The notes under the pieces were generated by a model that searched no databases, had not been told where the DNA came from, and saw only the letters and a list, made by a program, of their open reading frames with translations. Both the position numbers and the translations under genes were made by a program. A stretch of DNA of 59,443 bases from Bernardetiaceae bacterium (lineage in GTDB: Bacteria; Bacteroidota; Bacteroidia; Cytophagales; Bernardetiaceae), in the NCBI GenBank assembly GCA_020832465.1, contig JAFIER010000059.1:1-59443 (forward strand), in the 5' to 3' direction. Within the stretch, counting starts at the first letter, position 1. Each line of letters opens with the position of its first letter. Below, in pieces: positions 4,186 to 53,560 of the stretch.

Positions 4186-4273
4186 CATACTACTGGAGAT
4201 TCTCCATATAGATATAACATTTCTCAAAGAAATCTTATTTCTAAGCGCATTTTTCCATATGTATAGTACTATG
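4186..4273 (+). repeat. CATAC-type palindromic element, internally shortened copy
   Basis: Starts CATACTACTGGAGATTCTCC and ends GTATAGTACTATG, matching the ends of the longer copies. It contains the core hairpin (4210-4242: AGATATAACATTTCT-CAA-AGAAATCTTATTTCT) but most of the second palindrome is missing; only GCGCATTTTTCCATAT is left. No clear flanking duplication. It lies between the 3' ends of the glycosyltransferase and the minus-strand rmlA. Confidence 0.7.
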
Positions 4274-9546: not shown

Positions 9547-9624
9547 TGTAAGTACTTGCATAAATTTATATGGCATCAAAAACAATATATCAAGAACAAA
9601 TAGTTTCCGAAGAGCTGTTCGTTC
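9547..9624 (+). repeat. Decayed palindromic element related to the one at 28657
   Basis: AAGTACTTGCATAAATTTAT, then GGCATCAAAAACAATATATC: nearly the same words in the same order as the left end of the element at 28657-28798 (GTGCTTGCATAAATTTAGTG, GGCATTAAAAGCAATAAATC). It is followed at 9590-9624 by a degenerate core-type hairpin (AGAACAAATAGTTTCC ... AGCTGTTCGTTCT). The right end is not recognisable. Confidence 0.5.
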
Positions 9625-11985: not shown

Positions 11986-12111
11986 CAGACCACTATACAT
12001 TTTTCCATAATGCAAGGGGGCAAGCCGCCCCACAGGCTATGGAAAAAGGAGCTTAGAAATAACATTTCTCTGAGCCATGTTATTTCTGGCCGCCGAATGT
12101 CTATTAGTATG
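11986..12111 (-). repeat. CATAC-type MITE-like element, full length, 9-bp flanking repeats
   Basis: 126 bp, opposite orientation to most copies: CAGACCACTATACATTTTTC at the left, GTCTATTAGTATG at the right. It contains a partly decayed second palindrome (TTTTTCCAT ... CTATGGAAAAA) and the core hairpin at 12055-12087. It is flanked by GTTATTTAT (11977-11985) and GTTTTTTAT (12112-12120), a 9-bp duplication with one mismatch. The left repeat begins at the first base after the MBL gene stop codon. Confidence 0.8.
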
Positions 12112-17882: not shown

Positions 17883-17900
17883 GCTTATTAAATGTTTGAG

Positions 17901-18010
17901 GGGTGTATTTCAATACTACACGGTTTGTGTTTGGTGGAGACAGCAAACACGGCGAGAGTAGTTGTTTTAAGACAGTAGCTTACGCTACTGCGTAAATATG
18001 AATTGCACCC
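17901..18010 (+). mobile_element. GGGTGCAATTC-type MITE-like element with exact 8-bp duplication
   Basis: 110 bp with ends GGGTGTATTTC / GAATTGCACCC (inverted repeats, one or two mismatches) and an internal small hairpin CAGTAGC-TTAC-GCTACTG. It is flanked by exact direct repeats TGTTTGAG (17893-17900 and 18011-18018). The copy at 46613-46724 is clearly homologous in inverse orientation, sharing words such as CGGCGAGAGTAGTT and TTTTAAGACAGTAGCTTA. It has no coding capacity. It lies directly upstream of the 17241-17882 gene. Confidence 0.85.
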
Positions 18011-18054: not shown

Positions 18055-18087
18055 GGGCGTACGTCAAGTTGGCTAATCGGCTTAGGT
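18055..18087 (+). repeat. Fragment of GTACGTCAAGTTGG-type inverted-repeat element
   Basis: GGGGCGTACGTCAAGTTGG followed by CTAATCGGCTTAG matches the ends of the element at 22216-22328 and the sequences at 43272 and 49288. TTTTAGCACTCACAA follows, resembling the decayed start of a TTTAGCACTAACA-type hairpin. The other end is missing. Confidence 0.5.
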
Positions 18088-18181
18088 GGTTTTAGCACTC
18101 ACAATTTTCAAAAACTGTAGCCTACTACAACGAAGCTGTGGTTGCGTTACTATAAGCGCATAAATATTAAATATCTGCAAT

Positions 18182-18303
18182 CATACTACTATACATTTTT
18201 CCATAGCGTAGGGTTTGCAAACCCCACGCTATGGAAAAATGGGCTTAGAAATAACATTTCTTTGAGCAATGTTATTTCTATATGAAGAATGTCCAGTAGT
18301 ATG
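18182..18303 (-). repeat. CATAC-type MITE-like element, full length, 9-bp flanking repeats
   Basis: 122 bp from CATACTACTATACATTTTTC to GTCCAGTAGTATG. It contains the long palindrome CCATAGCGTAGGGTTTGCAA / ACCCCACGCTATGG and the core hairpin at 18247-18279. Flanks ATCTGCAAT (18173-18181) and ATATGCAAT (18304-18312) form a 9-bp duplication with one mismatch. It lies between two minus-strand genes, just after the end of the PlsC gene. Confidence 0.85.
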
Positions 18304-18349
18304 ATATGCAATAAAAGCAATGTTATCGTACGCCCCACTTCGCCCAAGT

Positions 18350-22215: not shown

Positions 22216-22328
22216 GGGTGTACGACAACTTTGCTAAATTAGCTCCGAAATAACATTTCTGCCAGAAATGTTATTTCTATAAGCTCTGACGCTATTTAAG
22301 GCGATTTACCAACGTGGCGTAGAACCCC
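22216..22328 (+). repeat. GGGTGTACGACAAC-type inverted-repeat element around the core hairpin
   Basis: Left end GGGTGTACGACAACTTTGC, then TAAATTAGCTCC; right end GGCGATTTACCAACGTGGCG, then TAGAACCCC, whose reverse complement matches the left end in most positions. The perfect core hairpin GAAATAACATTTCT-GCC-AGAAATGTTATTTC (22247-22277) lies between. No clear target duplication. Related ends occur at 18055, 31823, 43272, 49288 and 53258. Confidence 0.65.
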
Positions 22329-28656: not shown

Positions 28657-28798
28657 ACGTGCTTGCATAAATTTAGTGGGCATTAAAAGCAATAAATCAA
28701 TTTTAGATTTTAGAAATAACATTTCTCAAAGAAATGTTATTTCTAAAATTCCCCACCAAACACATATAATCATGTAAACTAAATTTATGCAAGTGCTT
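28657..28798. repeat. GTGCTTGCATAAATTTAGT-type inverted-repeat element with perfect core hairpin
   Basis: 142 bp with ends ACGTGCTTGCATAAATTTAG (28657-28676) and CTAAATTTATGCAAGTGCT (28779-28798), inverted repeats of about 20 bp. The centre holds a perfect 20-bp stem, ATTTTAGAAATAACATTTCT (28707-28726) against AGAAATGTTATTTCTAAAAT (28730-28749), with a CAA loop. It lies between the convergent barrel and PolX genes. A decayed relative is at 9547. Confidence 0.75.
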
Positions 28799-31546: not shown

Positions 31547-31822
31547 GTGATTTTAAATATTCCAAAAACAAAAAACACTTGCAAAAAACTAAAAATGACA
31601 CTTGCTTAAAGTATTGTTATTGCCACACCCAAATTTCTTTGGTAGGTGATTGAGGTATAGCTCAAACACACCTATTTTGATATAGCACATCAGCATTTTT
31701 TGCAAGTTGCAAATTTAAGCATTGTTACTGACTTATAAACAATTATAAGGCCTTTGTTTCCTGAATAAAGTTGTTCAAAGTTTAAAAAATAGCATAACAA
31801 GATGATTACCTTTGAGGTGAAG
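31547..31822. other. AT-rich spacer between HMG-CoA reductase and GHMP kinase genes
   Basis: Together with the repeat at 31823 this is a 361-bp gap between two minus-strand genes. It holds AT-rich sequence with no ORF; nothing recognisable apart from the repeat. It must contain the promoter of the GHMP kinase gene unless that gene is read through from hmgA. Confidence 0.35.
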
Positions 31823-31886
31823 GGGCGCAATATAACTTTGTTAAATTAGCTCAGAAATAACATTTCTCAAAGAAATGTTATTTCTG
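31823..31886. repeat. Core hairpin with a GGGGCGCAATATAACTTTG left flank
   Basis: Perfect 16-bp stem CAGAAATAACATTTCT (31852-31867) / AGAAATGTTATTTCTG (31871-31886) with a CAA loop, just downstream of the HMG-CoA reductase stop codon on its own strand. The left flank GGGGCGCAATATAACTTTG, then TTAAATTAGCTC, matches the end of the 22216 element. TATAACTTT occurs on both sides (31831-31839 and 31901-31909), which may be a 9-bp duplication or chance. Confidence 0.65.
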
Positions 31887-38911: not shown

Positions 38912-38952
38912 CATCATAACTAACAGTTCTGACAGAACTGTTAGTTATGATG
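38912..38952. repeat. Perfect palindrome of the AACTAACAGTTCT type
   Basis: 19-bp perfect stem CATCATAACTAACAGTTCT (38912-38930) / AGAACTGTTAGTTATGATG (38934-38952) with a GAC loop, 30 bp after topA. It is the C/G variant of the core hairpin also seen at 46475 and 51832. It could also help end topA transcripts, though there is no T-run. Confidence 0.65.
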
Positions 38953-41081: not shown

Positions 41082-41206
41082 CATCATACTACTGGACATT
41101 CTCCATATAGAAATAACATTTCTCAAAAAAATATTATTTCTAAGCCCATTTTTGCATAGCGTGGGGTTTGCAAACCCCACGCTATGCAAAAATGTATAGT
41201 AGTGTG
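41082..41206 (+). mobile_element. CATAC-type MITE-like element with exact 9-bp duplication
   Basis: 125 bp, CATCATACTACTGGACATTC to GTATAGTAGTGTG. Core hairpin (41109-41141), then a perfect long palindrome: TTTTTGCATAGCGTGGGGTT pairs with AACCCCACGCTATGCAAAAA. Flanked by exact ATTGGTTTT (41073-41081 and 41207-41215). The left end carries an extra CAT before the usual CATACTACT. It lies 54 bp upstream of pyrB, so it may sit in the pyrB promoter region, and 80 bp after the end of the HD gene. Confidence 0.9.
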
Positions 41207-41286
41207 ATTGGTTTTAAAAAACATAGCAAATTTAGCAAACACAATCTGATTCTGCAACTATTATGTGCAATATGCGCTTACAACTT

Positions 41287-43227: not shown

Positions 43228-43300
43228 TTTTAGCACTAACAACTCGGTTAGAACTATTAGTGCTGAAATTATCTAAGCGGATTTATCAACTTGGCGTATT
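43228..43300. repeat. TAGCACTAAC-type hairpin with a GTACGTCAAGTTGG-type end
   Basis: TAGCACTAACAACTCGGTTA pairs with AACTATTAGTGCTG (43230-43267). It is followed by CTAAGCGGATTTATCAACTT and GGCGTA, the reverse complement of the GTACGTCAAGTTGGTAAATC-type end found at 18055 and 49288. The element looks one-ended. It overlaps the region just downstream of the PafA-like gene and upstream of the 42736 gene. Confidence 0.55.
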
Positions 43301-46423: not shown

Positions 46424-46572
46424 CATACTATTAAGCATTATCACGTTTGATTTTGTAGTCTGAACTTATGCAAAAGAACTAATAGTTCTGGCAGAACTGT
46501 TAGTTCTAAGCCCATTTTTCCATAGCGTGGGGTTTGCAAATCCTACGCTATGGAAAAATGTATAGTGATATG
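46424..46572 (+). mobile_element. CATAC-type MITE-like element with exact 9-bp duplication
   Basis: 149 bp, CATACTATTAAGCATTATC to GTATAGTGATATG. The core hairpin here is the C/G variant, AGAACTAATAGTTCT-GGC-AGAACTGTTAGTTCT (46475-46507), followed by the long palindrome (CCATAGCGTGGGGTTTGCAA / ATCCTACGCTATGG). Flanked by exact ATTTTTTAT (46415-46423 and 46573-46581). Confidence 0.9.
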
Positions 46573-46612: not shown

Positions 46613-46724
46613 GGGTGCAATTCATATTTTTACGCAGTAGCATAAGCTACTGTCTTAAAATAACTACTCTCGCCGTATTTGGTGTCCCTATCAAAGACAA
46701 ACCGCGTAGTTTTGAATTGCACCC
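46613..46724 (-). mobile_element. GGGTGCAATTC-type MITE-like element with exact 8-bp duplication
   Basis: 112 bp with perfect 11-bp inverted ends GGGTGCAATTC / GAATTGCACCC and exact flanks CTTCGAAA (46605-46612 and 46725-46732). Inverse-orientation relative of 17901-18010, with the same internal small hairpin CAGTAGC-ATAA-GCTACTG. It lies 34 bp before the purN start and adds an in-frame upstream extension to the purN frame that should not be taken as coding. Confidence 0.9.
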
Positions 46725-46758
46725 CTTCGAAACAAATTTTATTTATCAAACAATTGAT

Positions 46759-49287: not shown

Positions 49288-49358
49288 GGTGTGCGTCAAG
49301 TTGGTAAATCGATTTAGAGCATTTCAGCACTAACAGCTTTCGAGAACTGTTAGTGCTG
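49288..49358. repeat. GTGTGCGTCAAGTTGG-type end plus CAGCACTAACAG hairpin
   Basis: GGTGTGCGTCAAGTTGGTAA then ATCGATTTAG at the left, followed by CAGCACTAACAGCTTT (49325-49340) pairing with AGAACTGTTAGTGCTG (to 49358) around a CG centre. It lies between convergent murF and a TPR gene and may also help terminate both. Confidence 0.6.
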
Positions 49359-51785: not shown

Positions 51786-51796
51786 ATCAAAATAAG

Positions 51797-51887
51797 GTAG
51801 TCTTAAAGATGTAATGCTCAAAGTCTTTCAAAACTAACAGTTCTCAAAGAACTGTTAGTTCTAAGCATTACTTGTTATACACTACCC
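51797..51887. repeat. Core hairpin in a third type of inverted-repeat setting
   Basis: Perfect hairpin AACTAACAGTTCT-CAA-AGAACTGTTAGTT (51832-51860). Around it are the inverted words GTAATGCT (51811-51818) and AGCATTAC (51864-51871), and further out GGTAGT (51797) and ACTACC (to 51887). No clear target duplication. Lies between two plus-strand lipoprotein genes. Confidence 0.6.
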
Positions 51888-53175: not shown

Positions 53176-53560
53176 TATATTGCAAAGACTTCAGAGCTGA
53201 TGCTGGAACTTTGGAGTCCTGTAGTGGGGCATTTCATCGTGTAACATAAAATCTTATGCGGGTGTACGAGAACTTTCCTAAAGTAGCCCAGAAATAATGG
53301 GCTTAGAAATAACATTTCTCAAAGAAATGTTATTTCTGGCTAGCGAATGTATAGTAGTATGATGTATAGTGAATGATATGATTTTTAGTATCTAATTATT
53401 TGAAATTTTTAGGCAAAACTTCGTAGCATTTTGCAACTTTGCAAAAAACTACTACTTTAGCGAGTAAGGTAATTAAATAGACTAAAACAATTAGCCTACT
53501 GTATAAAATACCTTGAAGTTACAAAAAAATACAAGGTTTGAATATATAGCCATAACGCTT
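53176..53560. other. Intergenic region upstream of dapF with nested repeats
   Basis: 385 bp. The middle is the nested repeat pair described at 53258-53361. After it, TTTTG (53429-53433) and TACTTTAG (53453-53460; consensus TAnnTTTG, one mismatch) are 19 bp apart and could be the dapF promoter with a leader of about 95 nt. No ORF. Confidence 0.4.
53258..53361. repeat. GGGTGTACG-type element interrupted by a CATAC-type fragment
   Basis: Starts GCGGGTGTACGAGAACTTTC, then CTAAAGTAGCCCAGAAATAA, the same order as the 22216 element, but the hairpin is broken after CAGAAATAA. ATGGGCTTAGAAATAACATT, the internal junction of a CATAC element in inverse orientation, follows with a perfect core hairpin (53305-53337) and the right end GTATAGTAGTATG (to 53361). 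A second short copy of that end (ATGTATAGTGAATGATATG) follows. Confidence 0.6.

Follow-up and report, generated by a model that had tools for sequence, protein, structure and literature searches.

Why should one short hairpin lie between inverted-repeat ends that differ from one element to the next? MITEs normally agree at their ends, and the question is raised by a contig of 59,443 nt from a Bernardetiaceae bacterium, which is called the window here. The earlier note described a hairpin core framed by an inverted-repeat end at positions 22216-22328, and the locus indeed reads this way. It is a type B MITE on the forward strand, 113 nt long (complete relatives span 59-227 nt), with a left end (GGGTGTACGACAACTTTGCTAAATTAGCTC; 22216-22245, forward strand) that reads GGGTGTACGACAACTTTGC, a 33-nt core palindrome with the loop GCC (22246-22278), and a right end (22297-22328, reverse strand) that is an approximate inverted copy of the left. 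Folded as single-stranded DNA, the element reaches -22 kcal/mol, compared with -8.8 +/- 2.3 kcal/mol for 200 shuffles. No 8-bp target duplication surrounds it, and it is an old B copy whose right end has diverged. The right-end pattern of type B recurs at 188 places genome-wide (89 + 99), compared with 0 for the control. The core is the unit that this element has in common with type A and type C MITEs and with solo copies.

Partial copies of the B ends had also been claimed at 18055, 31823, 43272, 49288, and 53258. All five are real. At 18055 lies the right end of a reverse-strand B element (18055-18335) interrupted by a nested type A MITE of 122 nt (18182-18303, core 18247-18279). At 31820-31885 (forward strand), a B left end is followed by a perfect core (31853-31885), with no right end seen. 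Variant cores adjoin B right ends at 43232-43300 (core 43232-43264) and at 49288-49357 (core 49326-49357), and at 53257-53362 (forward strand) a B left end leads into a core (53305-53337) that has type A sequence on its sides. Type A MITEs with cores are also present at 4186-4273 (core 4210-4242), 11986-12111 (core 12055-12087), and 41083-41210 (core 41109-41141), and a variant core beginning with AGAACTAATAGTTCT has a type A context (46475-46507). Type C is represented on the forward strand by a 91-nt MITE (51796-51886) with an 8-bp duplication and a variant core (51830-51862). One perfect core (28712-28744) lies outside A, B, and C in another inverted repeat, an end of which recurs at 9549-9593, and a solo core variant (38916-38948) has CATC/GATG inverted flanks. 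The window also holds a further repeat with GGTGCAATTCA/TGAATTGCACC ends, present as 101-nt inverted copies at 17899-17999 and 46626-46726 that are 87% complementary. This repeat is probably another MITE type.

The core is built as AGAAATAACATTTCT-NNN-AGAAATGTTATTTCT, a 3-nt loop between two 15-nt arms that are each nearly palindromic, with an A+T-rich stem. In the window element, 14 of the 15 arm pairs are formed and the predicted single-stranded DNA fold is -11.4 kcal/mol, compared with -1.13 +/- 1.09 kcal/mol for shuffles. The genome from which the window derives (4.60 Mb in 289 contigs) contains 626 core places at up to three mismatches, whereas the reversed control gives 0. Watson-Crick pairs occupy 90% of the arm pair cells in 102 distinct cores, compared with a mean of 77% and a maximum of 79% when the arms were dealt anew 500 times; this excess is an upper estimate because the cores had been preselected to form 11 or more of the 15 pairs, and they are related to one another to an uncontrolled degree. 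In comparisons between closely related B elements, which are not independent, 42 pair sites had changed, and 7 of them are altered on both sides and still paired. No match to the core was found in viral contigs (exact search) or in plasmids and phages (blastn), and Rfam at gathering scores gave 0 matches in the window. The core sequence was in none of the papers searched, and no account of such an element appeared among the papers listed.

The MITE families were surveyed in the window and 60 further stretches, 491,236 bases in all, and the frequencies differ from those of a random sample because the stretches were chosen around matches to the core and to B. Allowing one mismatch, an 8-bp target duplication flanks 30 of 39 complete type B elements (GGGTGTACG ends) and 17 of 22 complete type C elements (GGTAGT ends), and a 9-bp duplication flanks 12 of 34 type A candidates (CATACTACT ends), a set obtained by a permissive search for ends, in which some pairs are spurious. 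Terminal inverted repeats and target duplications of fixed length, with no evident coding capacity, make all three families resemble ordinary bacterial MITEs. They depart from such MITEs in that families with different ends have one interior palindrome in common.

For type A, a 384-residue transposase gene is located between CATACTACTAGAC ends, apparently at the end of a contig (L050). Its product belongs to DDE_Tnp_1 and comes closest to an IS4-family model, at 149.7 bits, just under the 152-bit cut-off; the sole named match is from a Phaeodactylibacter MAG, with 51% identity over part of the protein. Judged by its sequence and its matching ends, this IS4-type transposase is likely to be the autonomous partner of type A. 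A genome-wide search of the DDE families PF01609, PF12762, and PF01610 found no autonomous partner of B or C, the latter two families being absent from this genome, and a 374,542-base sample held no A, B, or C end pairs 0.6-4 kb apart with matching flanks. Because both make 8-bp duplications and start with GG, B and C may use related transposases. The same genome carries an IS5-type transposase (L049 9-983) and an IS701-type transposase between ACTGAAGTTACGCA inverted ends (L051 1339-2472).

The earlier note called these ends unrelated to the CATAC ends, and a comparison of the three types supports this. With the core left out, end regions of A, B, and C were compared in 12 pairings, and no score rose clearly above its shuffles. 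For the best pairing, B left versus C right, 30 of 300 shuffles scored as high or higher; for the positive control, B left versus B right, 0 of 300 did. Directly beside the core, AAGC is common to A and C and GAAA is common to B and C. These likenesses may reflect shared ancestry or exchange, and chance is also possible.

A proposed check was to look for copies of an end type that lack the core, and such copies do exist for two of the three types. The numbers of elements with no, one, and two cores are 8, 23, and 8 among the 39 complete B elements; the loose type A set, with its spurious pairs, has 12 candidates without a core and 22 with one; and all 22 type C elements have one. Core-less B and A copies are no proof of core insertion because they look like internal deletions (e.g., at L030 5641, L078 152, and L041 7516).

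A first flank clustering left 43 of 191 cores with both flanks unlike any other. Flank typing, in which random 28-mers were typed in 30 of 5000 cases, assigned both flanks in 110 of 228 cores, and 4 of these 110 are inter-family chimeras, three joining A to B and one joining B to C, in which both flanks abut the core. The core also acts as a junction for end exchange. In the window and stretches L029-L048 (n = 151), the flank types are A for 43 cores, B for 39, C for 19, E (another repeat beside A, B, and C) for 7, B + C for 1, and none for 42. Within type B, there is a core of three arm units (L043 17243), there are half cores (L041 7516), and core types have been exchanged between otherwise similar elements (L067 2037, L032 4431). 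Some B elements of 154-213 nt (L065 1899, L085 1504, L047 18948) carry a second hairpin, TGTAGTACGAAGCTCCAGCTTCG..CGAAGCTGGAGCTTCGGGCTACA, which is found inside many B elements and replaces part of the second core.

Inverted flank matches of at least four bases surround 14 of the 43 solo cores; 200 re-paired controls gave 1.65 such cores on average and never more than 5. The extension AAAATT is common to several of them and others differ, such as GCAGCCCTC/GAGGGCTGC at L037 8602. Many "solo" cores in this genome may be decayed MITEs. Only 7 of 153 sampled cores are inside crude ORFs of at least 80 residues, and 8 of the 153 are at stretch edges. Core density per kb is 3.3 between convergent genes, 2.2 between tandem genes, and 1.8 between divergent genes, in spacers whose lengths include the repeats themselves. 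A single core in the stretches from this genome is in frame with 40 open codons on each side, and its ORF is doubtful.

Copies in other organisms bear more directly on whether the core moves without a MITE. At up to three mismatches, the core is present in 7 of 390 genomes of the order, the source genome included. Genomes of another family hold 65, 21, 21, 19, and 1 copies, and another member of the source genome's own family holds 2. From these 129 copies, 28 were examined (nine from G085, six from G124, five each from G147 and G156, two from G003, and one from G098). C-like MITE ends (GGTAGTGCCAC/GTGGCACTACC) were recognized on at least one side of three of the 28, all in G085, and by eye a few more are possible; among the 25 copies from four multicopy genomes of the other family, about three have MITE-like ends. 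Because some G085 copies sit in a C-like MITE, the interior of an old MITE is a possible source of the core. Half flanks are similar (at least 15 of 24 positions) in seven pairs, two of them between two G085 MITE copies.

The suggestion that the core might be bounded by its own duplications was not borne out. None of the 28 copies outside the source genome has a direct duplication of 7-12 bp with up to one mismatch, and so the 33-nt core alone lacks the target duplication of a MITE. Short direct repeats of at least 3 bp were found around 1 of 28 copies, which is not above chance (control mean 1.4). No guide sequence was found around the copies elsewhere in a check that took 29 copies (58 flanks), and no conserved flank or T-run beside the core was evident by eye.

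In G147, three of five examined cores lie within long unrelated ORFs, all in the same reading frame, so that each encodes RNNIS-S/L-RNVIS. A fourth G147 copy (L099), in a short crude ORF, was left out of this count. The first ORF codes for a SpoIIE-domain protein that reads IEKTE-RNNISSRNVIS-KVSFAG at the core site, and its G156 ortholog, at 81% identity, has no insert and reads IDKEKHKVEFAG. The net gain is 10 residues rather than 11. At the same loop, a second G156 phosphatase fragment carries a palindrome in which 13 of 15 pairs were counted by eye. One idea, prompted by the net gain of 30 nt in the SpoIIE gene, would make the 3-nt loop the original target; that loop differs in length among homologs. 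The second ORF is CHAT-like, by a match under the curated cut-off, and holds the core together with another in-frame palindrome of the same build, AACCTCACAAGGTTT-TCA-AAACCTTGTGAGGTT; both lie in stretches of variable length among homologs, where the gene has indels in any case. Of the three in-gene copies, the one in the SpoIIE-domain ORF has a clean empty site. A CHAT-like homolog in G156 (L190) has an in-frame TAA where G147 has the second palindrome. The remaining in-gene core is carried by an ORF without a Pfam match.

Several known systems share some of these traits. REP repeats are described as palindromes of 20-40 bp with a GTAG or CGTC tag that are often near RAYT genes, some of them in ORFs and some in larger palindromes (PMC3733652, PMC6006769), and CGTC-tagged REPs are reported from Bacteroidetes as well (PMC3733652). 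The core resembles REP/REPIN sequences with their RAYT (TnpA-REP) in being a short multicopy hairpin that is often intergenic, sometimes in ORFs or other palindromic repeats, and one of several families per genome. It differs in its near-palindromic arms, in the large share of copies inside MITEs, and in lacking both a tag and RAYT linkage. Indeed, GTAG or CGTC, complements included, occurs within 8 nt of the core in only 2 of 58 flanks. A RAYT was rejected as the mover: 16 Y1-transposase loci of 2-3.3 kb, taken from six genomes that carry the core, contain no AGAAATAACATTTCT core. The source genome has three Y1-transposase genes, and a Y1-transposase match was found in 11 of 15 further genomes, core carriers and non-carriers alike, with none in G098, which has one core. 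At L026 1140-1450 in the source genome, another repeat (..ACGGCGTAAAAATTGCGTATATTTGTGCCGTTAG) stands in several copies ahead of a Y1-transposase gene and may be the REP set of that gene, and at one Y1-transposase locus of G085 there is another palindrome built like the core.

The Rickettsia palindromic elements (RPEs) described by Ogata and colleagues are about 150 bp long and enter genes in frame (as described in PMC10969869), and a CGTC end is reported for them (PMC3733652). The core is similar in that palindromic, selfish DNA lies in frame within unrelated protein genes, as in the three G147 ORFs, and different in its length of 33 nt (11 codons) and its lack of a CGTC end. Because the tests of tag, linkage, and length fail, we place the core in neither the REP nor the RPE group. 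The mobile GC clusters and hairpin elements known from mitochondria are likewise very short, gene-less palindromes that seem to spread, but in organelle genomes and with no known MITE capture. Their sequences are not known to be related to the core.

Taken together, these observations make it fairly probable that the core is a 33-nt palindrome that moves independently of MITEs, was captured by families A, B, and C, was multiplied by them, and swaps their ends. The earlier note proposed that the core may be a mobile or recombination unit in its own right, and this proposal gains support because copies without recognized MITE ends exist elsewhere and copies lie in frame within genes, one of them with an empty ortholog; the four chimeras point the same way. 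Such a core would insert between genes, within genes in frame, and within MITEs, and in the source genome no fewer than three MITE families, differing in their ends, would have captured it. MITE transposases acting on the MITE ends would then have multiplied the core to more than 600 copies, while recombination or template switching between near-identical palindromes would swap the ends and keep the arms complementary. Capture by insertion, the enzymatic or other means by which the core moves, and template switching as the source of arm matching are inferred. We read the core as a very short palindrome of REP/RPE-like kind, without a tag, that several MITE families have captured. More tentatively, with the chances a little short of even, it may represent an undescribed class of ultra-short, untagged, self-similar 33-nt palindromic mobile elements that comprises several families of the same build in two families of one order, enters genes in frame, and serves as a MITE passenger and end-exchange joint, so that parts could be assembled into new MITE types. 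If this is true, MITEs can acquire a modular core that is a second mobile element, the shuffling of ends would offer a route to new transposon types, and in-frame palindromes would add a source of 11-residue inserts for protein evolution outside Rickettsia. To our knowledge, few mobile DNA units would be as small as a gene-entering palindrome of 33 nt.

Other explanations were weighed against this reading. If all end types were diverged forms of one ancestral MITE end, the 8-bp duplications and GG starts of B and C and the four-base matches beside the core (A with C, B with C) would follow. However, type A makes 9-bp duplications and has the ends of an IS4-type element, the comparisons that paired B left with B right clearly joined no A, B, or C ends across types above shuffles, and the core also occurs without recognized A, B, or C ends; a single origin of the ends is therefore extremely improbable. 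It is also rather unlikely that the core is a functional hairpin or protein site (a terminator, mRNA stabilizer, or nucleoid-protein site) gained by several MITE families for a benefit to themselves or the host. Its mostly intergenic placement in the source genome sample, its somewhat higher density between convergent genes, and arms that stay complementary (in a pairing test inflated by preselection) are consistent with such a role, but it sits poorly with in-frame copies in three G147 genes, with the 383 of 390 genomes of the order that have no match at up to three mismatches, and with flanks that by eye show neither conservation nor a T-run. The A+T-rich stem would make a poor terminator, and the terminator reading was set aside, as core sites show no strong bias.

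The main rival is template switching, in which the core never transposes and instead spreads only through recombination, gene conversion, or replication template switching between palindromes, passing from MITE family to MITE family and entering genes as a templated insertion. This process would also explain the arm matching, with its compensated changes at 7 of 42 sites in nonindependent comparisons, the palindromic extension of the flanks of 14 of 43 solo cores by at least four matching bases, and the 4 of 110 chimeras joined exactly at the core, and it agrees with the lack of a target duplication and of a linked transposase. Nevertheless, the in-gene copies of G147 end at the 33-nt limit with no recognizable donor flank, and a patchy yet multicopy spread across families suits a mobile element better. 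We therefore consider spread without any transposition unlikely, though it deserves more weight than the other two alternatives, and both processes may operate.

Other palindromes with the build of the core were seen in G085 and G147, with the arms AACCTTATAAGGTTT, AAAGATGACATCTTT, and AACTTTTGGAAAGTTT (L122-L127 and L136 in G085; L137, L111, and L172 in G147). At L124 16363 in G085, one such palindrome is part of a tandem array with a 19-nt step.
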